Of a stretch of DNA of 64,000 nucleotides, positions 47,680 through 62,547 are shown piece after piece. The notes beneath the pieces are model-generated. The model searched no databases. It was not told where the DNA came from and was given only the letters and a program-made list of their open reading frames with translations. The position numbers and the translations under genes are program-made. This DNA comes from Denitrobaculum tricleocarpae. GTDB taxonomy: Bacteria; Pseudomonadota; Alphaproteobacteria; Kiloniellales; Kiloniellaceae. The stretch is taken from contig NZ_ML660061.1 in NCBI RefSeq assembly GCF_007004665.1, forward strand, positions 62,001 through 126,000. The letters are read 5' to 3'. Each line of letters opens with the position of its first letter. Position 1 is the stretch's first letter.

Positions 47680-49128
47680 CTAGGATTTCTTGCCGCTGTC
47701 GTGTGCCGACTTTCGAATGCGCCTGACCATCAGCCAGATCGAGAGAATAATGAAGGGCGCCGCCACGGTTGTAATCACCGCTGGATCGATTGGCATGAAG
47801 GCTTTGGGGATGCCTTTCAGCAGCCAGGAGAGAATGCCGATACAGTAGTAACTTACCGCCGCAACCGAGAGCCCCTCCACTGTCTGCTGTAGCCGCAACT
47901 GCAGTTGCGACCGGCGATCCATGGAGGCAAGCAGATCCTGATTCTGTCGTTCCAGTTCGACGTCGACTCTTGTTCTCAGGAGCGAGGACGCACGGGCGAT
48001 CCGCTCGGAGGTCGAATTCTGGCGATCCAAAATCGCCTGGAAACTCCGGATCGCCGGACCAAGCCGGCGTTCGATAAAGCTCGAGATCCGCTGATAACCC
48101 TCGATTCTCTCCTCGCGCAATTCCCCGAGACGCGATGTGACGATAGAGTAATAGGCCTTGGCCGCACTGAAGCGGAAGTTGGTCTCGGCGCCGACTGTTT
48201 CGGCGCGGGCGGCCAGAGCGGTCAGCTCGGAGAGGAGGCGGGCCTGGTCTTCCGGACCGTCGCTCCCCTCGCTGCCGATCTCCTGGATCAACCTGCGCAA
48301 TTCGCCGTCAATGTGGCCGATATCCTGGCCTGCTGATTTTGCCAACGGCCAGGTGATAAGCGCCAGAGTGCGGTAGGTTTCAATGTCGATCAGACGCTGA
48401 ATCACGCGTCCCAGCCGATTGACATTGCCGGACGTGTCCTGCACCAGAAATCGCGAATAACCGTCTGCGTGAAAACGAAAGTCGGTCATGATTTTCGTTT
48501 TCCCGCCATTGGCTGTCACCGCGACAATGCGGGTGTCCGTCAGCAGGTCTGTCTCGCCCGTCGCGGACCAGCGCGGATTTTGCGGTGTATCCACGTAGAA
48601 GCGGAGTGCGACAACCGGTTTGCCGCTTTGCTTAATGGCGGGCGTTTGAATCGGGTTGCCGGGTGACTCCGCGTCCTGCCGCGCCGGTGCGGCCGCATGG
48701 CTGCCGGTGATGAGGTCAATGTTGATGACCCTGCCGAACACACTGTCCTCGCCGCCGGGTGGATTTCTGCGGACGGCGGTGTAAGAGCAGAACTCCGTGT
48801 GACGTTCCCATTTGAAGATGACGCTGTCGTTCTCGAGAACCAGCTGCTGTTCGGCCTCGTCGCCCAGTGTTTTGCCAAGTTGTTGCGCGACTCGGCGGAC
48901 ATTTTCCCAATCCTTTTGCGCATCAAGCTCCCCGGACAGGAAGACCAGGTGTTCGCAGATGCAGGGCGATGCCGCCGGCAGGGCCGGCCGGGCGTTGGTC
49001 TCGGCCATGACTTCGTGGCGCAAAGGATGGATCGCGGTCCCCCCGCCGGGCAGCGTGGTTTGGTTTTCCAGGGTTTGCCCGGTCGAAGACGATGGACTCT
49101 CGTCGGCCCCATATTCTTGTTTACGCAT
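47680..49128 (-). CDS. DUF3422 family membrane protein
   Basis: A 482-residue protein. The N-terminal signature HPLRHEVMAETNARP is that of the DUF3422 family. A soluble region of about 390 residues contains a coiled-coil-prone stretch near 330-420. Two hydrophobic helices near the C-terminus (LSVAAVSYYCIGILSWLLKG and ITTVAAPFIILSIWLMVRR) anchor it to the inner membrane. The function is unknown; members are often called egg-lysin-like by fold annotation only. The start may be somewhat later than 49128, as the first 30 residues are low-complexity. Confidence 0.85.
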   Translation of the reverse strand: MRKQEYGADESPSSSTGQTLENQTTLPGGGTAIHPLRHEVMAETNARPALPAASPCICEHLVFLSGELDAQKDWENVRRVAQQLGKTLGDEAEQQLVLENDSVIFKWERHTEFCSYTAVRRNPPGGEDSVFGRVINIDLITGSHAAAPARQDAESPGNPIQTPAIKQSGKPVVALRFYVDTPQNPRWSATGETDLLTDTRIVAVTANGGKTKIMTDFRFHADGYSRFLVQDTSGNVNRLGRVIQRLIDIETYRTLALITWPLAKSAGQDIGHIDGELRRLIQEIGSEGSDGPEDQARLLSELTALAARAETVGAETNFRFSAAKAYYSIVTSRLGELREERIEGYQRISSFIERRLGPAIRSFQAILDRQNSTSERIARASSLLRTRVDVELERQNQDLLASMDRRSQLQLRLQQTVEGLSVAAVSYYCIGILSWLLKGIPKAFMPIDPAVITTVAAPFIILSIWLMVRRIRKSAHDSGKKS

Positions 49129-49511
49129 ACGCCATACCCAGATTTCCCCCAGAGTCAGCTGAAAGAGGCTAACCCGCTCTGTTCGATCGCCACAAACAGG
49201 ACGAGATGTTCTTCAAGCTCTAAGTCCTCGGCATTTTGCAGTTTTCGTCCGGTGAATAACATCTAAATCAGCGGGACGTTTCGTCACGCGGATATGAGCA
49301 CGGCCGTGGGGTCAAGATCCGGCTTGAGGCTAATTCACTTCCGTGACGGGTCCGCCCTTCAGGCCGCCTCGGAATCCCTTGAGGCGAATAATACTCCTCC
49401 GGTCAGCGACTCCTCTTCGAGAGACGCCGGGGTAGCAATACCTCAAGGGCAAAACAACCCCGGGGGTGTTCATGAAATTTTCCGGCGACTTGGGGGCCTA
49501 ACCAACCAGGT
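49129..49511. other. intergenic region upstream of a hairpin, possible small-RNA locus
   Basis: No protein gene is supported. It contains a near-palindrome around a CCCCGGGGG core (49453-49470) and ends at a strong hairpin. A small RNA transcript is possible but not shown. Confidence 0.3.
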
Positions 49512-49548
49512 AAAACAACCGCCATGAGGCACGATTCGCGGTTGTTTT
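49512..49548. terminator. strong bidirectional terminator-like hairpin without a nearby gene end
   Basis: AAAACAACCGC (49512-49522), 15-nt loop, GCGGTTGTTTT (49538-49548). An 11-bp perfect stem with A- and T-tracts on the outer sides, as in bidirectional terminators. No coding region ends close to it on either strand. Confidence 0.65.
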
Positions 49549-49877
49549 CCAAGTGCCGTTCCAGACCTTTGTGCAAATCTCAATGCGACGGATTCGAAAA
49601 AAAAGTGTGTTCCGGCGCGGGGTGAACTGTCGGGCGCGCACTGAAAAACCAATGACGCATTGCGCGAGTATCGCTTTGTAATTCCAGCATAAATAGAGGT
49701 ATTCTGGCTGTTTCTTAAGCATAGAACTCTTTGATTTGAAGACGTTTTCTTTTGTCCACCTGGTTGATTTTTTTTCAAACGAGATATTTAAAATTTGAAT
49801 AAGAACGTGTTACGCTTGTTTCAATCAGAGATTCGCCAACGATAAATAGATAGCGGATCCGTTTGAGGGAATTGAGG
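49549..49877. other. AT-rich intergenic region upstream of a small membrane protein
   Basis: AT-rich near 49740-49850, probably with the promoter of the gene at 49878. No other gene is supported. Confidence 0.4.
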
Positions 49878-50027
49878 ATGGACAAGATGGATCATCAGGA
49901 TCTCCGCAACTATGCGGGATCGGGTGAAAACGGCAAATGGCCGGCGCTGCGCTCGACGGCATTTATCCTGCTTATAAGTGTAGTGATCTGGTTGGCCTTC
50001 GTAATGGCCATCGCCAATCTGAGCTGA
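49878..50027 (+). CDS. small single-helix membrane protein, unknown function
   Basis: A 49-residue protein with a hydrophilic start (MDKMDHQDLRNYAGSGENGK) and one clear membrane helix (STAFILLISVVIWLAFVMAI). The ATG follows a GAGG ribosome site and an AT-rich likely promoter. The amphipathic start plus a single helix fits a small regulatory subunit or stress peptide. No family is recognised. Confidence 0.65.
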   Translation: MDKMDHQDLRNYAGSGENGKWPALRSTAFILLISVVIWLAFVMAIANLS

Positions 50028-50169
50028 CGAGATCAGGATTGCGTCAAGCCGGCGGGACTATTCGCCGGTTGTTTATTCAGCTTTCCGCTGCGGGCGTGTT
50101 TTGCATGATGAGCGGGGAGAAAGCTGCGCGACGTGAGTGCGCTGAAACCGACGCTCTGTCGCGGTATAA

Positions 50170-50179
50170 CCCCCCCCCC
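50170..50179. repeat. run of ten cytosines
   Basis: A C10 homopolymer just downstream of the small hypothetical gene at 50188 (leftward). Such tracts are slippage-prone, both in the cell and in sequencing. It is not inside a supported gene. Confidence 0.8.
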
Positions 50180-50187
50180 AGCCTGGT

Positions 50188-50394
50188 TTAGCTGCGTTCC
50201 ATGCTCGCGAGCATCTGGCGGAGGACTTCGCAGGTAAATTCCTTGTCCTGCAGCGTTCCAAATCCCCGAACGTCGTAGCCGCCGCTTCCGTCGTCTTTCA
50301 ACCCGATTGCGATCAGATGCTCGGCACCGAATTCCTGCATCTCACGCACCAGATCGTCGAATTTCGCCGTGGCGGCGGAAGGCTTACTGTTCAT
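50188..50394 (-). CDS. small hypothetical protein
   Basis: A 68-residue soluble protein from ATG 50394: MNSKPSAATAKFDDLVREMQ, then EFGAEHLIAIGLKDDGSGGY, and a C-terminal helix. The composition looks like a real compact alpha/beta protein. The family is not recognised. A longer frame from 50454 is open but has no better start. It stands alone upstream of tRNA-Met on the opposite strand. Confidence 0.55.
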   Translation of the reverse strand: MNSKPSAATAKFDDLVREMQEFGAEHLIAIGLKDDGSGGYDVRGFGTLQDKEFTCEVLRQMLASMERS

Positions 50395-50705
50395 TCCAGA
50401 GGTCCCTGTACCAATTAACGCCCGATAGCTAACATGGCCTTCCCGATAATCCAATGGCGCAAATGTCCGCTTTGCGCCTTTGGCGGAACGATGGGCGCCG
50501 CGACCTGTGAATTCGACCGAGCGGGATAGAGGCGCTTATGCATATCTGGCCGGGCCAGTGGGCATTTGCGGCAATTCCGTCAAAACCCGGTTGCCTGTCG
50601 GGCGGTGTGGCATTCCGTGAGGTCACAAAACTCTCTGAAGACCCTTGACAGAGGGGCATCCGACGCCCTATACGCCTGCCTCTGACGACATCATCCGATG
50701 TTTGT

Positions 50706-50782
50706 GGCGGAGTAGCTCAGCTGGTTAGAGCAGCGGAATCATAATCCGCGTGTCGGGGGTTCAAGTCCCTCCTCCGCTACCA
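50706..50782 (+). tRNA. tRNA-Met (CAT)
   Basis: A 77-nt cloverleaf: acceptor GGCGGAG/CTCCGCT, D-arm AGCTCAGCTGGTTAGAGC, anticodon stem GCGGA/TCCGC around loop ATCATAA (anticodon CAT), TpsiC arm with GGTTCAAGTCC, and encoded CCA. The first acceptor pair is a G-T wobble. It looks like elongator tRNA-Met. The same anticodon is used by lysidine-modified tRNA-Ile2, which should be checked. Confidence 0.95.
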
Positions 50783-51026
50783 TTATTTTCCTCTTAAAAT
50801 CAATTGATTAGGCCATAGGTTCTCGGTCGGGTCGACCGATTTCCGCTTTGGCGCGGTTTCCGCGAAAAACTCCTGAAATCCGCGGTTTCCTGACGTGCCG
50901 CGAACAGAAAGCAGTACGGCGTTGGTGAGGGAGTGCCGAACCTGATGCCATCGAGCGATTGCGGGGCGACTTCCCGTCGGCTCCTACGACACGGCTTTCG
51001 CCCCGGTGCGGCTCACGTGCCCGGGT
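50783..51026. other. intergenic region after tRNA-Met
   Basis: No integrase, attachment-site duplication or gene is seen next to the tRNA. It ends at the stop codon of the leftward ABC transporter operon. Confidence 0.4.
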
Positions 51027-52058
51027 TTAGGTGTCGAAGCCTTTGAAATCACGCGACCCCTGCTCGACCAGGCTCTCCGAAAAATGACAGGCCGCGAAGC
51101 GCCGTTCCTGAACTTCGCGCAGTTCCGGCGCTTCCCTGCGGCAACGCTCTTGCACAAACGCGCAGCGCGGGGAGAAATGGCAGCCGGGCGGCGGGGAGAG
51201 AGGAGACGGAATTTCGCCCTCAATGGGTTCGAAGTGGACAATAGCCTCGTCGTCGAGCGTCAACTTGGGGACCGAGGCCAATAAAGCTTTGGTGTAGGGA
51301 TGGGCAGGCGTTTCAAAGAGCTGCGCGGTCTCGCCCTGCTCGACGACGCGTCCGAGATACATGACCGCCATGCGGTCGCTGACGTGCCGCACCACGGAAA
51401 GGTCGTGACTGATGAAAAGGCAGGTCAGATTCAGTTCGCGGCGCAGATGTAAAAAGAGATTGAGAATTTGGGCCTGGATCGAGACGTCGAGGGAGGCGAC
51501 AGGCTCATCGCAGATCAGGAGATCGGGCTTCATCGCCAGGGCGCGGGCGATGGCGATACGCTGGCGCTGGCCGCCGGAGAACTGATGTGGGTAGCGGCCG
51601 GCGAAGGCGGGGTCCAGTCCAACGCGCGCAAACCATTCCGAGACATAGTCTCCGGCCTTCGCGCGTGAAACCAGGCCGTGGGCGACCGGCCCTTCGGCGA
51701 CGGTTTCACCAACCTTCATCCTTGGGTCGAGCGAGGCGAAGGGATCCTGAAAGACCGTCTGTATTCGGGTTGTCGCCTTGTGTCCGTTCAGCAGGACCGG
51801 CTTGCCCTCCAGCGCGACTGTGCCGGAACTGGGCGGCAGAATACCGGCGGCGACCCGGCCCAGCGTAGACTTACCGCAACCGGACTCCCCAACCAGGCCC
51901 AGTGTCTCCCCCTTGGCCAGTTCGAGTGTTACCGCATTGACCGCCTGAAGCGAACGGGTTTCGACATTTGCGCCAAGCTTCGCGGCGATCCGGTCACCCA
52001 AGGTGATTTCAGGTGCGAAAGCGCGCGAGACTTGGTCTATCCGAAAGAACGCTGTCAT
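51027..52058 (-). CDS. peptide-type ABC transporter ATP-binding protein (DppF/OppF-like)
   Basis: A 343-residue ATPase, last gene of the importer operon. Walker A GLVGESGCGKSTLGR, Q-loop TVFQDPFASLDPRM, signature HQFSGGQRQRIAIARAL, Walker B LLICDEPVASLDVSIQ and the switch His in LFISHDLSVVRHVSDR. The C-terminal oligopeptide/dipeptide extension has SPLSPPPGCHFSPRCAF, which in some relatives binds an iron-sulfur cluster. It starts within the stop of the preceding gene (ATGA, 52055-52058). It partners the gene at 52055 in one heterodimer. Confidence 0.93.
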   Translation of the reverse strand: MTAFFRIDQVSRAFAPEITLGDRIAAKLGANVETRSLQAVNAVTLELAKGETLGLVGESGCGKSTLGRVAAGILPPSSGTVALEGKPVLLNGHKATTRIQTVFQDPFASLDPRMKVGETVAEGPVAHGLVSRAKAGDYVSEWFARVGLDPAFAGRYPHQFSGGQRQRIAIARALAMKPDLLICDEPVASLDVSIQAQILNLFLHLRRELNLTCLFISHDLSVVRHVSDRMAVMYLGRVVEQGETAQLFETPAHPYTKALLASVPKLTLDDEAIVHFEPIEGEIPSPLSPPPGCHFSPRCAFVQERCRREAPELREVQERRFAACHFSESLVEQGSRDFKGFDT

Positions 52059-53047
52059 TGCTGGGCTCCGCGCACGTCTGTCCCGCGCCGGCCCAGAGGG
52101 TGATGACAACGCCACATACGCTCATCATCCCAGGTGATCTCCGGCATCTTTTCGCAGCTCGCTTCAGCGGAATCGCAGCGTGGCGCAAAAGGGCAACCCG
52201 GCGGCAACGAGAGAAACGACGGTGTCGTTCCGGGGATCTGCAGGAGGTCCTCGCCCGGCTTGGCGATGGCCGGAAGAGAAGTAATCAGGCCGCGGGTATA
52301 GGGATGACGCGGGTCGCGCAACACCGTTCCCGTAGCACCTTCTTCGACCACTTTACCCGCATACATGACCAGCAAACGTTTTGCCAGGCTTGAGACGGTG
52401 GCCAGGTCGTGGCTGATCCAGATCATCGCCGTGCCGGTTTCTGCCGCGAGACTGCGCATTTCATGCAGGATCTGAGCCTGGATGGAGACGTCAAGCGCGG
52501 TGGTGGGTTCGTCGGCGACGATCACGGCCGGATCGTGCAGCAGGGCAATGGCTATGGCGACACGCTGACGCATACCGCCCGAAAACTCATGGGGATAGGC
52601 TTTGATCCGTGCCGCGGGATCAGGGATGCCAACGCGCTGCAGCACTTCGATACAGCGTGTCTCGGCGGCTTTCGTGGTCATGTTCTGGTGGGCTTCGAGC
52701 GCCATCATCATCTGTTTGCGGATGGTCAGAAGCGGGTTCAGGGTCGCGATCGGATCCTGAAAGATCATCGCAATCTCTTTTCCCCTCCGGGCGCGCAGTT
52801 CGCTCTCCGGAAGGCCCACCAAGTCAGTGCCGTTCAGCTGTATAGATCCTCCAGTGATACGGCCTGGCGGATCGACCAGACCCAGCAGGGAAAACCCGGT
52901 TACGCTCTTGCCGGAGCCCGACTCACCGACCAGTCCCAGAATCTCGCCCCGCTTCAAGGTGAAGCTGACGCCATCGACGGCACGGATCACACCTGCCCGG
53001 GTGTTGAATTCCGTGCGCAGATCCCGCACCTCCAGGACAACGGTCAT
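52055..53047 (-). CDS. peptide-type ABC transporter ATP-binding protein (DppD/OppD-like)
   Basis: A 330-residue ATPase. Walker A GLVGESGSGKSVTGF, Q-loop MIFQDPIATLNPLLT, signature HEFSGGMRQRVAIAIAL, Walker B VIVADEPTTALDVSIQ, switch IWISHDLATVSSLAKR. The C-terminal domain has PSFLSLPPGCPFAPRC. It overlaps the permease gene upstream by 4 bp. The substrate range is set by the binding protein at 55039. Confidence 0.93.
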   Translation of the reverse strand: MTVVLEVRDLRTEFNTRAGVIRAVDGVSFTLKRGEILGLVGESGSGKSVTGFSLLGLVDPPGRITGGSIQLNGTDLVGLPESELRARRGKEIAMIFQDPIATLNPLLTIRKQMMMALEAHQNMTTKAAETRCIEVLQRVGIPDPAARIKAYPHEFSGGMRQRVAIAIALLHDPAVIVADEPTTALDVSIQAQILHEMRSLAAETGTAMIWISHDLATVSSLAKRLLVMYAGKVVEEGATGTVLRDPRHPYTRGLITSLPAIAKPGEDLLQIPGTTPSFLSLPPGCPFAPRCDSAEASCEKMPEITWDDERMWRCHHPLGRRGTDVRGAQQ

Positions 53048-53925
53048 TTGCGGAGCCTCGGATTGAACTGATCACGGATCTGATCGCCGACCATGTTGAT
53101 GGCGACGATCAGAATAATCAGGGCAATGCCGGGATAGACGGATATCCAATAGCGGCCGCTCATCATGTAGGGGAAGCCGTTGGAGATCAGCATTCCGAGG
53201 CTTGGTTCGGTGACCGGCAGACCCAAGCCGAGAAAACTCAGGGTGGCTTCCAGGGAAATCGCGTTGGCAATCTGGACCGTCGCCACCACGATCAGCGGCG
53301 GCAGGCAGTTCGGCAGCAAATGACGGAAAGCGACCTGCCGGCCCGAGAGGGGCGTCGCCAGAGCCGCTTCGATGTAGTCCTTGCGTCTTTCGCCTTTGGC
53401 TGCCCCGTACGCGGTTCGTGCGAAATAGGCGTACTGCGCCGCCACGAGTGCGGTGATGAGTTGTCCCTTGCCTTGGCCCAGGAGAGCGACCAGGACCAGC
53501 GCCAGGAGGATGGCGGGAAATGACAGCTGAAGATCGACGATCCGCATCAGGACCGTTTCAAGACGTCCGCCCACATAGGCCGCGGCAATCCCGACGGTCG
53601 TGCCGAGTGCCAGGGCGACAACGCCCGCCGCCAGCCCGATCAGGATAGAAATGCGCAGACCGTATAGGATGGCCGAGAGCAAATCGCGTCCCTGTGGGTC
53701 GGTCCCGAGCAGGTGGCTATAGCCACCCGAGCCGACAAACCCGGGCGGCCGGCGTGCATCGAGCAGCGACAGGTTTTCCAGGTCGTAAGGATCTTGCGGC
53801 ACGACGTAAGGTGCGAAGAAAGCGAGAAGCGCCATGACGACAACGACGACAAGTGCCACAACCGCGAAGCGGTTTTCCTGAAATTCCACCCAGAAGCGGC
53901 GGAGAGGAGACTGCTGCCCGGTCAC
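53044..53925 (-). CDS. peptide-type ABC transporter permease (DppC/OppC-like)
   Basis: A 293-residue inner-membrane permease. The OppC-type N-terminus FWVEFQENRFAVVALVVVVV precedes GTDPQGRDLLSAILYGLRIS and the EAA loop with EAALATPLSGRQVAFRHLLP. About six helices. GTG start overlapping the stop of the upstream permease gene by one base (TAGTG). Confidence 0.92.
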   Translation of the reverse strand: MTGQQSPLRRFWVEFQENRFAVVALVVVVVMALLAFFAPYVVPQDPYDLENLSLLDARRPPGFVGSGGYSHLLGTDPQGRDLLSAILYGLRISILIGLAAGVVALALGTTVGIAAAYVGGRLETVLMRIVDLQLSFPAILLALVLVALLGQGKGQLITALVAAQYAYFARTAYGAAKGERRKDYIEAALATPLSGRQVAFRHLLPNCLPPLIVVATVQIANAISLEATLSFLGLGLPVTEPSLGMLISNGFPYMMSGRYWISVYPGIALIILIVAINMVGDQIRDQFNPRLRK

Positions 53926-54896
53926 TATGCGCCTCTCGCACGGATGCGTGGGTCGATCAGAGCAAAGACCAGGTCCACAGTGAGATTGATCAGAACGAAA
54001 AGCAGCGCCGTCAGTATCAGATAGGCCACCATTACCGGCCGATCGAGCACCGTGATGCTGTCGATGATGAGTTTACCGACCCCCGGCCAGGAAAAAATCG
54101 TTTCGGTCACGACGGCAAAGGCCAGCGTCGACCCCAGCTCCAGGCCGAAGACCGTAATGATCGGGATCGAAATCAGCTTGAGAAGATGTTGCGTCAGGAT
54201 CTGACGCTCTGGAATTCCGGCGGCGCGGGCGAATTTGATCGTGTCGGTCAGCATGATCTCCCGCGTTCCCGCCCGGGCAAGACGGATCATCATCGCCAGC
54301 TTGAAAAAAGCGAGATTCAGGGCCGGCAGGAAGATGTGGGAGAGGCCGTCAGGGGTGAGGAAACTCCAGTCCACTCCCAGGAAGCTCACCACCTCGCCCC
54401 GGCCGCCGGCCGGCAGCCATCCCAGGTTGACGGCAAAAATCAGAATGAGAATCAGACCCACCCAGAAACTGGGCACTGAAAACCCCAGCACCGAAACCGC
54501 CATAATCCCGCGCGCGATCAAGCTCTCCGGCCGATAGCCCGCGTAGACGCCCAGACCGACCCCGAGCAGGGTCGCCGTGACGACCGAGATCAGCACCAGT
54601 TCCAGGGTCGCGGGGAGACGTCCTGCAATCAGCTCCAACACAGGCACGTTGTAAATGAAGGAGCGTCCGAAGTCGCCCTGCAGGAGGTTTGTGACGAAAA
54701 TGAAGTACTGTTCCCAAAGCGGCAGGTCGAGGCCGAAGCGCTTGATGGTGGCTTCACGGATTTCCTGGGTCGCCTCGGGCGGGATAATGATTTCGATCGG
54801 ATTGCCGATGGCATAGACGCCAACGAAGACGACCGCCGACATGACGGCCATGACGACCGCCGCCTGAAGTAGGCGTTGAATCACAAAACCCAGCAT
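53925..54896 (-). CDS. peptide-type ABC transporter permease (DppB/OppB-like)
   Basis: A 323-residue permease. The N-terminal helix is FVIQRLLQAAVVMAVMSAVV, the periplasmic segment is LGLDLPLWEQYFIFVTNLLQ-like followed by GDFGRSFIYN, and the EAA loop (IKFARAAGIPERQILTQHLL) precedes the last helices. It is first of the four membrane/ATPase genes and lies about 140 bp after the binding-protein gene, with an 18-bp tandem repeat between them. Confidence 0.92.
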   Translation of the reverse strand: MLGFVIQRLLQAAVVMAVMSAVVFVGVYAIGNPIEIIIPPEATQEIREATIKRFGLDLPLWEQYFIFVTNLLQGDFGRSFIYNVPVLELIAGRLPATLELVLISVVTATLLGVGLGVYAGYRPESLIARGIMAVSVLGFSVPSFWVGLILILIFAVNLGWLPAGGRGEVVSFLGVDWSFLTPDGLSHIFLPALNLAFFKLAMMIRLARAGTREIMLTDTIKFARAAGIPERQILTQHLLKLISIPIITVFGLELGSTLAFAVVTETIFSWPGVGKLIIDSITVLDRPVMVAYLILTALLFVLINLTVDLVFALIDPRIRARGA

Positions 54897-54981
54897 TCAA
54901 TCTGTTACCCGCCCAATACCTACTTGGCACATTACCCGCTCAGAGGAGGGGCGAGCCGGAGAAGAGACCTCCAGCCCGCCC

Positions 54982-55053
54982 GTCTCAGTTCTTCGCGCCG
55001 TCTCTGTTCTTCGCGCCGTCTCTGTTCTTAGCGCCGTCTCAGTTCTTGGCCTT
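54982..55053. repeat. 18-bp tandem repeat at the 3' end of the binding-protein gene
   Basis: Four consecutive 18-bp units (GTCTCAGTTCTTCGCGCC and close variants; the last is GTCTCAGTTCTTGGCCTT). The rightmost unit contains the stop codon and last codons of the binding-protein gene; the other three are degenerate copies beyond the stop. Confidence 0.9.
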
Positions 55054-56640
55054 AATGAAGAATGCCAGAGTATCTTCATCGAAGCGGGGTGCAAAGATCA
55101 CGCTGTTGGCCTTTGCAGCCCAGACAGTCTGCAGCTGCACGACCGGGATGTACACGCGATCGGCCATGGTCGCGATCATGGCTTGCTCGTAGAGCTTGCG
55201 GCGGGCGTCAGGATCGAGGGTCGTCGCGCCTTCCTGCATCAGGCGGTCAACCTCGTCATTCTTGTACGCGACGCGGTTGAAGGCACCCATTTTGACTTCC
55301 GGGTCATTGGAATGCGCCAAGGATCCAAGGGTGTAGGAGGCCTCACCCGTGAGCGTTCCCCAGCCGTTCATGAAGACTGAATACTCCAGGCGGGATTGCG
55401 CGGGAAAGTAAACGGTTTTCGAAATGGCATTGACGTTGGTCTTGATGCCGATCTGGCTGAACATCTGGCCCAGCCCCTGACAGATCGCGCCGTCGCCCGG
55501 GAGCCGGTCAGAGGTGCAGTAGAGATCGAACTCAAATCCATCAGGATAGCCCGCCTCTGCGAGCAGTGCGCGGGCCTGAGCAGAATCATGTTTGCGCGCC
55601 GGAATCTCTTCGCTGGAGCCGAAGAAGCCCGGTGGCATCATCTGATTGGCCGGTTTGCCGAGGCCTTCGAGGACGATACTCACCATGGCGTCGCGGTCGA
55701 TGGCCAGATCGATCGCCTCGCGCACCAGCGGGTCGCGGAGCGGGTTCTTGTCGAGCTTGGAACCGTCCTTGGCGCGAACCAGCGGCGTGTCCTCGCGCTG
55801 ATCGAGCTGCAGGTTCATGATGTAAACACTGTCACCAATGACCGCCTCGACGCTGGAATCCCGCTGCAGGGCCAGATAATCGATCGAGGACACGTAATTG
55901 ATGACGTCGACCTGGCCGGATTTCAGGGCCGCCAGACGTGAACTGTCGTTCGGCATTTCCTTGCGGATGACCCTGGCCCAGGGACCTTTTCCGCGCCAGT
56001 AGTCGTCAAAGCGTTCGAGAACCAGATCGCCTTTCGGCTCCCAGCTGACCAGCTTGTAGGGCCCGGTGCCGACTGCCGCGGGACCGCCGTTGAAGCCTTC
56101 CGCGGCCGTTTCCGGCGTGGAATAATCCTTGGCCGCGTCTGAACTTACGACAAAGAGGCGCACGAAGTCGTAGGGCAGGGTGGCCGCCGGACCGTTGGTT
56201 TTGATGTGAAGCGTGTAGGGATCGACAATTTCGACTCCTGCGACACGGCGGACGTAGATCGTCGTTGTGGTCGGCCCGCTGACGACCGGGATGCGCTCGA
56301 TCGAAAACTTGACGTCCTCTGCATCGAAGTCGGAGCCGTCGTGGAACTTGACCCCTTCGCGGAGTTTGAACTCCCAGGTCGTCTCGTCGAGGGCTTTCCA
56401 GGATGTCGCCAGGCCAGGTTCAATCTGTAGATCGTCGCCCGACCAGACGAGCGTGTCATAGATGTGCTTCGCCGCTTCGGCATGACTGCCCAGCGCCGAG
56501 AAGTGCGGATCCAGAGACTCCGGGCCGCCGCGCACACCCATGGTGAGTGTCTGGGCCTGTGCCGAGGCAAGAAAGGACCCGGCTGCAAAGGTTAAACCCA
56601 GTGCCAATGCCGCGGATGCAAATAGTCGTTTCGTTTTCAT
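55039..56640 (-). CDS. ABC transporter substrate-binding protein, family 5
   Basis: A 533-residue periplasmic protein from ATG 56640, preceded by AGGGGG. Signal peptide KRLFASAALALGLTFAAGSF with cleavage near AQAQ. Family-5 signatures are GGPESLDPHFSALGSHAEAA, LATSWKALDETTWEFKLREG plus VKFHDG, and GTGPYKLVSWEPKGDLVLER. It delivers the substrate to the permeases downstream. Family 5 covers peptides but also nickel, opines, sugars and heme. A palindromic operator lies 39 bp upstream of the start, facing a divergent MarR gene. Confidence 0.93.
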   Translation of the reverse strand: MKTKRLFASAALALGLTFAAGSFLASAQAQTLTMGVRGGPESLDPHFSALGSHAEAAKHIYDTLVWSGDDLQIEPGLATSWKALDETTWEFKLREGVKFHDGSDFDAEDVKFSIERIPVVSGPTTTTIYVRRVAGVEIVDPYTLHIKTNGPAATLPYDFVRLFVVSSDAAKDYSTPETAAEGFNGGPAAVGTGPYKLVSWEPKGDLVLERFDDYWRGKGPWARVIRKEMPNDSSRLAALKSGQVDVINYVSSIDYLALQRDSSVEAVIGDSVYIMNLQLDQREDTPLVRAKDGSKLDKNPLRDPLVREAIDLAIDRDAMVSIVLEGLGKPANQMMPPGFFGSSEEIPARKHDSAQARALLAEAGYPDGFEFDLYCTSDRLPGDGAICQGLGQMFSQIGIKTNVNAISKTVYFPAQSRLEYSVFMNGWGTLTGEASYTLGSLAHSNDPEVKMGAFNRVAYKNDEVDRLMQEGATTLDPDARRKLYEQAMIATMADRVYIPVVQLQTVWAAKANSVIFAPRFDEDTLAFFIKAKN

Positions 56641-56679
56641 GGTTCCCCCTGTTACGGAATGTGGAAACATTATTTTTAA

Positions 56680-56691
56680 TTCCATATGGAA
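56680..56691. promoter_or_regulatory. MarR-type operator 1 (TTCCATATGGAA)
   Basis: A perfect 12-bp palindrome upstream of the binding-protein gene. It shares the right half ATATGGAACT with the second site, centre-to-centre distance about 54 bp. Confidence 0.75.
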
Positions 56692-56731
56692 CTTGTAATC
56701 CTGACGATGTTCAGGAATAGTCCGTCTGTCA

Positions 56732-56747
56732 AGTTCTATATGGAACT
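56732..56747. promoter_or_regulatory. MarR-type operator 2 (AGTTCTATATGGAACT)
   Basis: A 16-bp palindrome with one mismatch, 31 bp upstream of the MarR ATG. With operator 1 it flanks the divergent promoter region of the importer and the enzyme operons. Confidence 0.75.
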
Positions 56748-56778
56748 AATGAAACTCTAAAAAAAGCAATCGGGCGCA

Positions 56779-57330
56779 ATGTCAATTCAGTCTCCACCGC
56801 CTTCACCGTCGCGGCCAGTGTGTGTGTCGGGCATGGATCTCATGACCGAAGCCAAGCTCTGGCGGAACCCTTGTCCCTTTTCCTTTCGGCTGAACTATCT
56901 GGCTCTCCGCTACAACAGTGCCTGCTATGACTGGGTTCAGAAAACCGAAGGCCTGAGCCGGATCGAATACATGGTCGTCTATTCCCTGGCGCTCTGCGAG
57001 GGCGGTCAGGCCCGTGACATTGCCCGCTCCTCCGGCTTCCCGAAAAACAGCCTGTCGCGCGCGATCGCGAAACTCGAAGAGTCCGGACTGATCACCCGGC
57101 GCCGCGGCACCGGCGACGGAAGGGGGCAGGCTTTGTTTTTGAGTGAAGAAGGCCGAGCGCTTTTCCGGCGAACCCTGCCGGCCTTCGAGCGGCGCGAGCA
57201 AGAGATGCTGACCGGTCTCAGCGACGATGAACAGCGGACTCTGTCTCATCTGCTTGCCAAGGTCGTGCTGAACTGCGCGCCGCTTTCGGATGAGTTTCCC
57301 AAAGACTTCAACCCCTCCGCGACGGAATAA
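56779..57330 (+). CDS. MarR-family transcriptional regulator
   Basis: A 183-residue regulator. The winged helix is LSRIEYMVVYSLALCEGGQA, RDIARSSGFPKNSLSRAIAK, LEESGLITRRRGTGDGRGQA, with flanking dimer helices. MarR proteins usually bind 16-20-bp palindromes as dimers, matching the two sites just upstream. The first 20 residues are Ser/Pro-rich and an alternative ATG lies at 56833. It is first gene of a tightly packed operon with a creatininase-family enzyme (6 bp gap) and is divergent from the importer. Confidence 0.88.
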   Translation: MSIQSPPPSPSRPVCVSGMDLMTEAKLWRNPCPFSFRLNYLALRYNSACYDWVQKTEGLSRIEYMVVYSLALCEGGQARDIARSSGFPKNSLSRAIAKLEESGLITRRRGTGDGRGQALFLSEEGRALFRRTLPAFERREQEMLTGLSDDEQRTLSHLLAKVVLNCAPLSDEFPKDFNPSATE

Positions 57331-57336
57331 GTAGCT

Positions 57337-58053
57337 ATGATGATTTCGGACATGAACTGGATGGATGTCGAACGTCAGGTCGCGCGGGACACGCGCTGTG
57401 TCCTGCCGATCGGTTCGGTCGAACAGCACGCGCAGCTCTCCCTCTGCGTCGATGTCATCAATTCGGAGCGCGTGGCGCGTGAAGCAGCAGAACCGCTTGG
57501 TGTTCCCGTCTATCCGGTGATTCCCTACGGCATGACCCCGTATTTTACCGCCTATCCCGGCACGGTGACCTTGCGGATCGAGACCCTGATGGCCCTGATG
57601 CGCGACATTATTGCTTCCCTGCGCCGGACCGGCTTCAACCGTATTCTGATCGTCAATGGTCACGGTGGAAACTCCGCAGTCGGTGCGCTCGGTCAGGAAC
57701 TGATGGCCGATTATGGTGATATTTCGATCCGGCTGCACAACTGGTGGAATGCGCCTTTGACAGCGGCCAAGACGAGAGAGATCCATCCTATCGGCACCCA
57801 TGCCAACTGGATGGAGAACTTTCCCTGGACGCGCCTGGCGCATGCTCCGGCACCCGAGGGTGAAAAGCCGGCACCCGATATGGCCGCAATCCGTGCCGCG
57901 ACACCTCAAAAGGCGCGGGAGATCCTGGGAGACGGCAACTTCGGCGGTCCCTGGCAGGTTGACGACGAGGCGGCGCTGGAGCTCTGGAAGACCGGCGTCG
58001 AAGAAACCCGCGCCGCAATCGAGGGGCCCTGGCCGGAGCTGGAGCGGAGCTGA
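57337..58053 (+). CDS. creatininase-family amidohydrolase
   Basis: A 238-residue metalloenzyme. The metal motif LPIGSVEQHAQLSLCVD provides Glu29, His31 and Asp39. ILIVNGHGGNSAVGALGQEL provides the conserved His, and GTHANWMENFPW the second Glu. The usual GPHLP after EQH is AQLSL here. Known members hydrolyse creatinine, cyclic amides or formamide-type intermediates (ArfB/MftE-like). In this context a cyclic-amide or lactam bond in the imported compound is a plausible target. It overlaps the next gene by one base (TGATG). Confidence 0.88.
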   Translation: MMISDMNWMDVERQVARDTRCVLPIGSVEQHAQLSLCVDVINSERVAREAAEPLGVPVYPVIPYGMTPYFTAYPGTVTLRIETLMALMRDIIASLRRTGFNRILIVNGHGGNSAVGALGQELMADYGDISIRLHNWWNAPLTAAKTREIHPIGTHANWMENFPWTRLAHAPAPEGEKPAPDMAAIRAATPQKAREILGDGNFGGPWQVDDEAALELWKTGVEETRAAIEGPWPELERS

Positions 58054-59090
58054 TGTCCCGCGATCCGGTCCTGATATGGGGCGCCGGCGCCATCGGCGGG
58101 ATCCTCGGGGCCTACTGGGCGCGGGCCGGTGTTCCGGTGATGATGGCCGACATCGACGCCGACCATGCCGTTGCCTGTTCGACGGAAGGGGTGTTGATTG
58201 AAGGTCCGGTCGAGGGATTCCGCCAGATCGTAAACTGCGTTACGCCGGATGCTGTGGAGGGCCGCTATCGCTGTGTCGTGCTCGCGGTCAAGGCACAGGC
58301 AACGGAAGACGCCATGCGCATGCTGCTTCCTCATCTGGCGGAGGACGGTTTTGTCCTCTCCGCCCAAAACGGACTAAATGAGCGTTTGATTGCCGAGATG
58401 GCGGGGCGCGAGCGGGTCATGGGCGCCTTCGTGAACTACGGCAGTGACTGGCAGGCACCGGGCCGGATTCTCTTCGGCAACCGTGGTGCCGTTGTCGTCG
58501 GTGAAATCGATGGTGCGGTGAGGCCGCGTACCCGGGAGATGCACCGGCTGCTGCAGATTTTCGAGCCTGACGCGGTTCTGACGGAGGAGATCTGGAGTTA
58601 TCTCTGGGGCAAACTGGGGTACGGCGCCATGCTGTTCGCGACGGCACTGACCCCTGATAGTATGTCAGCCAACTTTGCCGACCCGGCGCGCGTGCCCGCG
58701 TTGATCGCGCTGGGACGCGAGGTGATGGCCGTCGCCCGGGCCGAAGGCGTGAAGCCGCGCGGGTTCAACGGCTTCGATCCGAGTGCTTTTGCGCCTGGTG
58801 CGCCGGACCAGGCCGCCTGGCAGTCGATTGCGGCACTGGCCGATTTCACCTCCAAAACCGCCAAGACTCACTCGGGAATCTGGCGCGATCTGGCCGTTCG
58901 CCGTCGCCGGACGGAAGTCGATCCGCAGATCGGGGTGATCACTGAAATCGCCGCATCGCATGCAATCGAGGTACCGCTTCTGTCCCGGCTGGTTGCCCTG
59001 ATCCACGATATCGAGGAGGGCCGCCGGCCCCAGTCAGCAGAAACCTTCGCCGAGCTCACGTCGGTTCTTTCCGCCGAGCAGGCCTCATGA
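58053..59090 (+). CDS. ketopantoate reductase-like dehydrogenase (ApbA/PanE superfamily)
   Basis: A 345-residue protein. The Rossmann motif VLIWGAGAIGGILGAYWARA is followed by LAVKAQATED, FVLSAQNGLNE, then a helical C-terminal domain with the Lys/Asn-type active-site region SYLWGKLGYGAML. PanE is about 300 residues and sits with pan genes; here it sits between a creatininase-family and an SDR gene. It probably acts on another 2-oxo/2-hydroxy acid. It overlaps both neighbours, so the enzymes are made together. Confidence 0.87.
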   Translation: MSRDPVLIWGAGAIGGILGAYWARAGVPVMMADIDADHAVACSTEGVLIEGPVEGFRQIVNCVTPDAVEGRYRCVVLAVKAQATEDAMRMLLPHLAEDGFVLSAQNGLNERLIAEMAGRERVMGAFVNYGSDWQAPGRILFGNRGAVVVGEIDGAVRPRTREMHRLLQIFEPDAVLTEEIWSYLWGKLGYGAMLFATALTPDSMSANFADPARVPALIALGREVMAVARAEGVKPRGFNGFDPSAFAPGAPDQAAWQSIAALADFTSKTAKTHSGIWRDLAVRRRRTEVDPQIGVITEIAASHAIEVPLLSRLVALIHDIEEGRRPQSAETFAELTSVLSAEQAS

Positions 59091-59824
59091 GCGTTGCGCT
59101 GGTTTCGGGAATCTGCGGCGGCATCGGCGCGGCTATCGCCAGGCGGCTCGCAGAGGATGGTTTTCTGGTGGTTGTCACCGACCGGCCCGGCGAAGCCTTT
59201 GAGCGCGCCGCAACCGGACTCGGCTTCCCGGCTTTTGCCGCCGATCTGGGTGATAAAGCCGAGGTTATGCGGCTTGCGGAAAAGGTCGCGGCCGAGCAGG
59301 GAGCGCCGGAGGTTCTGGTCAATGCGGCGGGGGGCGTTTGCGGTCAGATCCGCCAGCCGGTCGACGAGGTGCCCGAGGAAGACTGGCGCAACGTCTTTGC
59401 CGCCAACATCGACAGCGCCTTCTTCCTGGCCCAGGCTCTGGTGCCGGAAATGCGCGCTTCAGGGAAAGGCAGGATCATCACCATCAGTTCGGGGGCGGGC
59501 TTGCGGCCCAGCCTGACGGGTATACAGGCTTACACCGCAGCCAAACATGCCCTGGTCGGCCTGACGCGTCAGCTGGCGCTTGAGCTTGGTCCACAGGGCA
59601 TTACCGTCAATTCCGTCGCTCCGGGTTTCGTATTGTCCAACGAAGCCACCCGCCGGCAATGGGAGAGCTACGGTGATGAAGGCCAGAAAGCCCTGATCGA
59701 GCGCATTCATCTGCGCCGTCTGGGCAGGCCTGAAGACATCGCGAATGCGGTTTCCTTCCTGGCCGGGGACGAAGCTGCGTGGATCACGGGGCAGGTGCTT
59801 TGCGTGGATGGCGGACAGTCCTGA
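59087..59824 (+). CDS. short-chain dehydrogenase/reductase
   Basis: A 245-residue classical SDR. VSGICGGIGAAIARRLAEDG is the nucleotide motif; the Asp after the second strand (VVTDRPGE) indicates NAD(H). LVNAAGGVCGQ, active-site Ser in IITISSGAGLRPS and YTAAK follow, then ITVNSVAPGFVLSNEA and ITGQVLCVDGGQS. The substrate is unknown. It is the last gene of the MarR-creatininase-reductase-SDR operon, with an ATGA overlap at 59087-59090. Confidence 0.9.
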   Translation: MSVALVSGICGGIGAAIARRLAEDGFLVVVTDRPGEAFERAATGLGFPAFAADLGDKAEVMRLAEKVAAEQGAPEVLVNAAGGVCGQIRQPVDEVPEEDWRNVFAANIDSAFFLAQALVPEMRASGKGRIITISSGAGLRPSLTGIQAYTAAKHALVGLTRQLALELGPQGITVNSVAPGFVLSNEATRRQWESYGDEGQKALIERIHLRRLGRPEDIANAVSFLAGDEAAWITGQVLCVDGGQS

Positions 59825-60700: not shown

Positions 60701-61927
60701 CTAGCCGCCGAAGTCGTCGAGCATAATGTCCTCACGCTCGACCCCAAGGTCAAGCAGCATGTTGATCACCGAGATATTCATGATGGGCGGTCCGCAGAGG
60801 TAGTACTCGCAGTCTTCCGGAGCCGGGTGATCTTTCAGATAGTTTTCAAACAGCACGTTGTGGATGAAACCGGTATCGCCGTCCCAGTCGTCGTTTGGTT
60901 GAGGATCCGAGAGCGCCACGTGCCACTCGAAGTTTTCGTGTTCCGCCTGCAGTTTGTCGAAATCCTCGACAAAGAACATCTCGCGGCGGCTGCGCGCGCC
61001 GTACCAGAAGGTGATTTTCCGCTCGGTGTCGATCCGCATCAACTGGTCGAAGATATGCGAGCGCATCGGCGCCATGCCGGCGCCGCCGCCGATGAAGACC
61101 ATTTCCTTTTTCGTGTCGCGCGCAAAGAAGTCACCGAACGGACCGGAGATGGTCACCTCGTCGCCCGGCTTCAGATTGAAGACGTAGGACGACATGAGAC
61201 CGGGCGGAACGGATTTAGGGTCGGCGTGAGGCGGCGGTGTGGCGATGCGCACGTTGAGCATGATCACGCCCTTCTCCTCCGGGTAGTTGGCCATGGAGTA
61301 GGCGCGCATCACCTCCTCCTGGTTGTCGACCTTGAGGTCCCAGAGGTGAAACTTGTCCCAATCCTCGCGATACTCCTCTTCGACATCGAATTGCTTAAAG
61401 TCGAGCTTGTAGGGCGGGCATTCGATCTGAATGTAGCCACCAGCGCGGAAGTCCACGTTCTCGCCTTCGGGAAGCTCCAGCACGAGACATTTGATAAAGG
61501 TTGCCACATTGTCGTTGGAGCGCACGCGGCAGCGCCACTTCTTGACGCCGAAGACCTCGTCCGGAATCCGGATTTTCATCGGCTGTTTCACCGAGACCTG
61601 GCAGGACAGCCGGTCTCCCTCGCGTGCTTCGCGCTTGGTGATATGGGACAGCTCGGTGGGCAGGATCGATCCGCCGCCTTCGTCGATCTTGACCCGGCAC
61701 TGCGCGCAGGTGCCGCCGCCGCCGCAGGCTGAGGCCACGAAGAGGTTCTCGGCCGCCAGGGCACCCAGGAGCTTGCCGCCGGCCGGCACGTGGATCGTGC
61801 GTTCGTCGTTGATCAGGATCTCGACCTCGCCGCTGGCCACCAGCTTCGAGCGGGCGAAGAGGATAACCGCGACCAGCGCCAGGATAACGGCTGTGAAGAG
61901 GGTGACACCGAAAATGAAGTTTTCCAT
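60701..61927 (-). CDS. nqrF: Na+-NQR subunit F (NADH-oxidising)
   Basis: A 408-residue subunit, the electron entry point of Na+-NQR. An N-terminal helix ([20 protein letters not shown]) is followed by a 2Fe-2S ferredoxin domain (Cys in [15 protein letters not shown] and later LSCQVSV). The FAD site is [11 protein letters not shown] and the NADH domain has [20 protein letters not shown]. The end [10 protein letters not shown] is that of NqrF. It is 11 bp downstream of nqrE. Confidence 0.96.
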
Positions 61928-61938
61928 GGCTGGGTCCG

Positions 61939-62546
<608 letters not shown>

Positions 62547-62547
<1 letters not shown>

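Follow-up and report, generated by a model that had tools for sequence, protein, structure and literature searches.

The window analysed here is a stretch of 64,000 nucleotides from Denitrobaculum tricleocarpae (contig NZ_ML660061.1, part of a 6.44-Mb genome), and its positions 51027–59824 hold nine genes, in which an arm coding for an Opp/Dpp-type ABC importer is divergent from an arm coding for a MarR-family regulator, a creatininase-fold hydrolase (Crn), a ketopantoate-reductase-like dehydrogenase (KPR) and a short-chain dehydrogenase (SDR). On balance, and with moderate confidence, we read these genes as a substrate-induced unit for the uptake and degradation of a small compound that resembles a peptide, contains an amide bond and has at least one hydroxyl group open to oxidation. 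The basis is computational and comprises gene content, linkage, fold, active-site residues and operator conservation. The module is real and of an ordinary kind, a regulator with an importer and a small enzyme set being common; the combination of enzymes, by contrast, appears to be undescribed. An earlier, sequence-only reading of the window knew of no characterised pathway with this gene set, and a literature search of open-licence papers, in which absence is a weak argument, returned, among the titles and abstract openings listed, neither such a pathway nor a description of the cluster.

The same reading had described a full family-5 importer divergent from MarR, hydrolase, reductase and SDR genes, an arrangement borne out by rechecked open reading frames (ORFs), strands and coordinates and by Pfam; it spoke of eight genes, where the set comprises nine. 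The components are the following:

51027–52058, minus strand: importer ATPase 2 (OppF/DppF-like), ABC_tran and oligo_HPY (Pfam); alternative GTG start at 52115
52055–53047, minus strand: importer ATPase 1 (OppD/DppD-like), ABC_tran and oligo_HPY (Pfam)
53044–53925, minus strand: importer permease (OppC-like), OppC_N and BPD_transp_1 (Pfam)
53925–54896, minus strand: importer permease (OppB-like), BPD_transp_1_N and BPD_transp_1 (Pfam)
55039–56640, minus strand: periplasmic binding protein of SBP family 5, SBP_bac_5 at 288 bits (Pfam), with PDB sequence matches
56678–56693, no strand: predicted operator 1, AATTCCATATGGAACT, 37 bp from the binding-protein start codon, kept across MarR-bearing loci
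56732–56747, no strand: predicted operator 2, AGTTCTATATGGAACT, 31 bp from the MarR start codon, kept across MarR-bearing loci
56779–57330, plus strand: MarR-family regulator, MarR_2 at 37.0 bits, cutoff 27 (Pfam)
57337–58053, plus strand: creatininase-fold hydrolase (Crn), presumably metal-dependent, PF02633 at 150.8 bits, cutoff 31.3
58053–59090, plus strand: ketopantoate-reductase-like dehydrogenase (KPR), ApbA and ApbA_C (Pfam)
59087–59824, plus strand: short-chain dehydrogenase (SDR), adh_short_C2 at 190 bits (Pfam)

Conservation of this neighbourhood, which had been proposed as a check, is extensive. The hydrolase occurs in six of the 23 genomes of the family, the genome under study included (E <= 1e-30), and all five other carriers have the nine genes in the same order. 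More distant relatives were followed through named loci, the best 80 of at least 540 relatives, so that the counts describe the nearest part of the hydrolase family; the closest hydrolases among them (L044 and L016, 98% and 97% identical) belong to uncultured Kiloniellaceae. Three of these loci, L016, L034 and L044, duplicate the family relatives L011, L014 and L010 and therefore count in both tallies. Where more than 9 kb is available on each side, as in 51 of the named loci, KPR adjoins Crn in 48, and the SDR, the importer and an M20 dipeptidase are found in 46, 47 and 38, respectively. When all loci with enough sequence are taken (of the 80, 4 were set aside for KPR, 9 for SDR, 11 for M20 and 10 for the importer), KPR adjoins Crn in 64/76, the SDR lies downstream in 60/71, the importer is present in 61/70 and M20 in 49/69; the importer count favours the importer, short loci having been taken only if both permeases were seen, and of its nine misses three (L038, L053, L057) are cut by contig ends and one (L067) runs off the stretch. 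As a control, 20 stretches of 20 kb, all from the window's own genome, gave the importer three times, the SDR once, and M20 and KPR not at all. All linkage counts derive from tblastn tables, and not from a script-based ORF picker, which mis-called some frames in GC-rich loci and gave an M20 gene in 51 of 81 stretches.

Much of the content of the module is kept where its order or its importer changes. In 20 of the 64 permease-bearing loci the permeases are merely 33–43% identical to those of the window and none of the 20 has the MarR gene, while KPR still adjoins Crn in 17 of them; thus, the importer was swapped for another Opp-type one and the enzymes stayed. A beta-proteobacterial bin (L093) has the three enzymes, the binding protein, both permeases and one ATPase in a different order, with a beta-aspartyl-peptidase-like gene amid the module and no MarR match, and its contig stops after the first ATPase. 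The overlaps of the enzyme genes, which the sequence-only reading had put at 1–4 bp, are 1 bp for Crn/KPR and 4 bp for KPR/SDR, and with starts picked by script they recur in 57 of 65 Crn-KPR pairs and 45 of 52 KPR-SDR pairs. Evolutionary distances of the enzymes are correlated (Crn-KPR, r = 0.80; Crn-SDR, 0.68; KPR-SDR, 0.63; permutation p = 0.0005). The hydrolase is also found on 33 plasmid records, and in 12 of the 16 plasmid neighbourhoods examined the annotations place Crn, KPR and SDR side by side or a few genes apart; KPR is annotated as its N-terminal domain only in L096, and has no annotation in L098, L101, L102 and L134. Synteny, rearranged orders that retain much of the content, gene overlaps and correlated enzyme divergence together support the prediction that the nine genes form one functional unit. 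Since much the same gene set is found in distantly related bacteria, it is probably a real nutrient pathway and not a chance neighbourhood.

Some hydrolase genes stand in other surroundings. A Klebsiella pneumoniae IncFIB plasmid (L098) has the importer, a GntR gene and the hydrolase, without annotated KPR or SDR and with insertion sequences on the flanks. In two Chloroflexi bins (L063, L064) the hydrolase is accompanied by neither KPR nor SDR, and its neighbours are M20 hydrolases and an importer gene of the glycine-betaine type; L063, the one of the two analysed by Pfam, also has an FAD-dependent oxidoreductase (DAO) gene; this arrangement may be a simpler use of the same hydrolase. In three verrucomicrobial bins (L075, L080, L082) the gene is found near what looks by eye like a B12/siderophore-type binding protein gene, and the rest of the module was not seen.

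Regulation of both arms by MarR, which had been proposed from two palindromes with a common half, is supported by the distribution of these sites. The palindromes of the window both contain ATATGGAACT, and one precedes each arm, so that the common promoter region holds a conserved pair of predicted operators. MarR orthologues are 52–96% identical in the five family relatives. When 330 bp upstream of the MarR gene were searched in the 31 loci that have one, allowing up to 3 mismatches to the palindrome, two sites 53 or 54 bp apart were found in 21 loci and one site in 9; the single locus without a site (L027) offers just 27 bp. These MarR upstream regions hold 51 operator-like sites, versus 1 in the remainder of the same 562 kb, and in the 49 loci without that MarR gene 4 palindrome matches occur in 807 kb. 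About 200 shuffled palindromes gave a mean of 0.035 and a maximum of 3 sites in regions where the original palindrome gives 49. In the 6.4-Mb genome itself the two operators are the only matches at up to 2 mismatches, whereas the reversed control pattern matches once per strand. With an operator before each arm and no further match in the genome, MarR very probably controls both arms and little else and, by analogy with its family, it would be a repressor released by a ligand. A scan of positions 56600–56860 for sigma-70 promoters gave no match. Across 77 named loci, the MarR gene lies upstream in 29 and a GntR gene in 13.

The importer has all the parts of a family-5 (Opp/Dpp) system, namely an SBP_bac_5 protein, two permeases and two ATPases with oligo_HPY, and shares this five-part layout with the Dpp and Gsi peptide importers (DppA; GsiB, 1uqw). 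Unlike DppA and GsiB, the binding protein of the cluster scores below both equivalog cutoffs and, among the equivalogs listed (dipeptide, glutathione, nickel or opine specificity), is under cutoff in all 11; the best is GsiB, at 168.9 versus 594. Its best PDB sequence matches are 5u4o and 1uqw, the latter being YliB (GsiB). The binding protein and 1uqw have in common a GW-x-x-x-TGEA stretch, which is suggestive of the substrate, not specific for it.

The accessory genes of the relatives also bear on the substrate. By annotation, 15 of the 16 plasmid loci have peptidase or amide-hydrolase genes, and the accessory genes comprise dipeptidase (8), carboxypeptidase M32 (8), isoaspartyl peptidase/asparaginase (8), polysaccharide deacetylase (6) and RraA (4). 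The sets vary from locus to locus, including M20, PuuE-like plus beta-aspartyl peptidase, M32 plus RraA, aspartoacylase-like, amidase and gamma-glutamyltransferase genes, and this variety points to amide bonds, not to one compound. The M20 enzyme of one relative, of the CNDP/carnosinase type, passes the NCBIfam dipeptidase model PRK08201 (446.6, cutoff 441) and matches CNDP and beta-Ala-His dipeptidase in the PDB. Single examples of the polysaccharide deacetylase (89 versus 424.6 for allantoinase PuuE) and of the beta-aspartyl peptidase (303 versus 567) fall below their cutoffs, and are therefore relatives of these enzymes, not equivalogs. Of the substrate suggested by the sequence-only reading, the involvement of an amide bond gains indirect support from the peptidases and amidases of relatives, while the class (lactam, hydantoin, opine or modified peptide) stays a guess. 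The neighbourhoods of the 80 loci hold no conserved opine or hydantoin signature. As for a hydantoin, HyuA-like genes lie near just 4 of the 80 loci and two genes resembling, by eye, N-carbamoylases of the nitrilase family occur in L067 and L069, too few to retain that candidate. In many MarR-type loci (L017–L026 and others) the M20 gene is followed by an EamA/DMT-type transporter gene, which is nearby in 21 of the 80.

For the analysis of active sites, sequences were aligned after selection by length and score (of 90 loci, 86 Crn, 64 KPR and 75 SDR sequences were kept). KPR belongs to the KPR superfamily: it has ApbA and ApbA_C, and its catalytic K187 and E288 and its QNG motif are kept in 46/46 sequences (the window and 45 of the 64 retained). 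Its AlphaFold model has a predicted local distance difference test (pLDDT) value of 95.9, and its nearest folds are the ketopantoate reductase 5hws and the D-mandelate dehydrogenase 5x20. The D-mandelate dehydrogenases of this superfamily (5x20, 8wl1) are near KPR in fold, with template modelling (TM) scores of 0.73–0.80 for the best chains, and have 16–20% identity with it in the fold alignments; they share the cofactor loop Asp-x-x-x-x-His-Val with the KPR family consensus, while the window KPR has His-Ala. SDR is a classical member of its family, with a Rossmann domain and an intact S135-Y149-K153, each residue being present in 63/63 sequences. An Asp lies at the end of the second strand in KPR (D33, 46/46) and at the NAD-type position in SDR (D32, 61/63). 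As a rule of thumb, an Asp at such a position of the cofactor loop goes with NAD rather than NADP, and on the strength of these residues both proteins look like NAD-linked oxidising enzymes.

Crn is a member of the creatininase superfamily both by its PF02633 score and by its fold. Its AlphaFold model (pLDDT 93.2) has TM values by query length of 0.67–0.85 to 26 fold matches with E <= 0.001. The best of them, 3no4 from Nostoc punctiforme (TM up to 0.85), shares the NGHGGN motif and aligns badly in its C-terminal part; its name, creatinine amidohydrolase, is as deposited. Residues E29, H31, D39, H109, H155 and E160 are invariant in 49/49 sequences (the window and 48 of the 86 retained), as is the C-terminal block H155...W158-M-E160-N. 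Crn matches four superfamily models among the matches listed (creatininase, IolN, MftE and ArfB) and is below cutoff in each, including the ArfB model (NCBIfam) and the MftE mycofactocin peptidase model TIGR03964 (54.3 versus 172, with no search aimed at other mft genes). None of the nine proteins, indeed, reaches a curated NCBIfam cutoff among the matches listed, which for three of them are the best 25 of 186–224.

A scheme can be proposed in which the direction of the redox reactions, the order of the steps, the substrate class, the repression and the inducer are inferred. The binding protein and the OppBCDF-type importer would take up the compound, and the compound or an early product would release MarR, which would otherwise repress both arms from the two operators. 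The KPR-like and SDR enzymes would oxidise hydroxyl groups with NAD+, and the creatininase-fold enzyme would hydrolyse a cyclic, strained or hindered amide. A peptidase or amidase, varying between lineages and encoded in or beside the cluster in most relatives examined, would then free the amino acids; in the lineage of the window this activity would have to come from elsewhere, or would not be needed. More specifically, and tentatively, the cluster could possibly represent an undescribed pathway for hydroxylated cyclic or lactam-bearing dipeptides, such as modified diketopiperazines, in which Crn and two NAD dehydrogenases are combined with interchangeable peptidases, and whose spread, with large plasmids as one of the vehicles, would cover Alphaproteobacteria and Deinococcota, with scattered cases in other groups.

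Several observations weigh against the proposed peptide-degrading unit. Beside the window cluster there is no dipeptidase (hence no CNDP/carnosinase-type M20 gene like that of the relatives), PuuE-like or beta-aspartyl peptidase gene, and the nearest homologues in the genome are weak (M20, 28%; PuuE-like, 37% over ~120 residues; M32, 35%), with no match for the beta-aspartyl peptidase in a search that had no positive control; the peptide reading consequently rests on the relatives. Even among these, accessory genes other than M20 are uncommon in the 80 loci (M32 8, RraA 6, PuuE-like 6, amidase 6, aspartoacylase-like 3, beta-aspartyl peptidase 2). The PDB matches of the binding protein include haem- and nickel-binding proteins, and family-5 binding proteins are known to carry haem, metal chelates and sugars too. 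The NAD preference is deduced for each dehydrogenase from one Asp, by a rule of thumb. As to the unity of the module, KPR does not adjoin Crn in 12 of the 76 loci, hydrolase genes without the rest of the module occur in verrucomicrobial, chloroflexal and acetobacteral bins, and relatedness inflates the correlations of enzyme distances, which are in part due to common ancestry. The hydrolase is also sparse in the class, being found in 18 of 385 genomes, that under study included (E <= 1e-60, at most 7 candidates scored per genome); at the thresholds used it was missing from the other 367, and from 17 of the 23 family genomes.

The main rival, which we regard as unlikely, is that Crn cleaves a carbon-carbon bond of a ring, as IolN (3-dehydro-scyllo-inosose hydrolase) does in the Thermotoga inositol pathway: the dehydrogenases would make a cyclic 1,3-diketone, Crn would open the ring, and the substrate would be a cyclitol or an amino-acid cyclohexenone conjugate. 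The logic of two dehydrogenases followed by a creatininase-family hydrolase is similar in the two systems, the cluster does hold two NAD-type dehydrogenases, and Crn matches the IolN model NF041098. This match, however, amounts to 52.1 bits, far under the cutoff of 245 and also under the 82.7 bits obtained with the creatininase model; furthermore, importer and accessory genes differ from those of the inositol pathway, and neither the type of importer nor the relatives' peptidases point to a sugar.

It is distinctly unlikely that the unit serves to remove or inactivate a peptide-like signal or antibiotic and not to grow on the compound. MarR regulators often answer toxic compounds, and the plasmid records of the hydrolase would suit such a role; nevertheless, nutrition agrees better with the presence of a full importer, not an exporter, with the NAD type of the dehydrogenases and with the relatives' peptidases, and the DMT/EamA transporter found near some loci is absent from the window.

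Degradation of pantothenate or pantoate, with the KPR-like enzyme run backwards on pantoate, is very improbable. Pantothenate is indeed an amide, and KPR scores 127.0 against the 2-dehydropantoate 2-reductase model TIGR00745, which is still under the cutoff of 141.35. However, the pair of Asn residues after the catalytic Lys in the 2-oxopantoate complex 5ayv, which has a role in ketopantoate reductase, corresponds in KPR to G191 (46/46) and F195 (44/46, Y in 2), and the cofactor Asp implies NAD, not NADP. Action of KPR on ketopantoate is unlikely.

Use of creatinine by a true creatininase is hardly credible. Crn has the same fold as creatininase (1j2t, 1q3k), with TM values by query length of 0.76–0.82 to creatininase entries (0.77 for 1j2t), and its E29, H31, D39 and H109 align with creatininase metal ligands. 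In contrast, identity in the fold alignments is 21–23%, the score with the creatininase equivalog TIGR04448 is 82.7 versus 235 bits with an alignment spanning residues 5–138 only, the Glu of the creatininase NGHYEN motif (E122) is replaced by G111, a Gly in 49/49 sequences, and Crn has its own conserved block H155-A-S/N-W-M-E160-N and no creatinase partner gene in the unit. Finally, two independent adjoining operons, one for a generic dipeptide importer and the other for oxidoreductases unrelated to it, could be imagined from the swapped importer type in 20 of 64 loci, and are scarcely tenable in view of the synteny and the operators, conservation having largely refuted them.

Details of the gene starts and of the flanks complete the picture. 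The MarR gene ends at 57330, before the Crn start at 57337. The importer genes overlap by 1–4 bp, provided that ATPase 2 begins at the ATG at 52058, chosen over the upstream GTG because of the resulting 4-bp overlap with the upstream gene; there is no overlap between the permease gene at 53925–54896 and the binding-protein gene. For the binding protein the probable start is 56640, where MKTKRLF... looks by eye like a signal peptide, and not the ATG at 56685, which would fall within the first palindrome. A tRNA-Met (CAT) gene lies at 50706–50782, ~245 bp past the end of the importer arm, in a region (49128–51027, ~1.9 kb) whose largest ORF is of at most 102 aa, barring those entering from either side; a short ORF at 49880–50027 would, by eye, code for a small membrane protein with a single span. 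Beyond the SDR gene, positions 60701–62547 by eye code for NqrF and a neighbouring Nqr subunit of the sodium-pumping NADH:quinone reductase.

Curated functions exist for few branches of the creatininase superfamily, and that of Crn is encoded in a compact, self-contained and conserved unit that brings an importer and a regulator of its own. Once the substrate is assigned, a nutrient of Deinococcus and of Alphaproteobacteria from sea and soil would have a name, and a function would be given to hundreds of genes (at least 540 relatives), which now bear names such as "creatininase family" or "2-dehydropantoate 2-reductase". The assignment would also supply a ready-made MarR sensor, the inducer of which is made testable with a reporter by the conserved operator pair.

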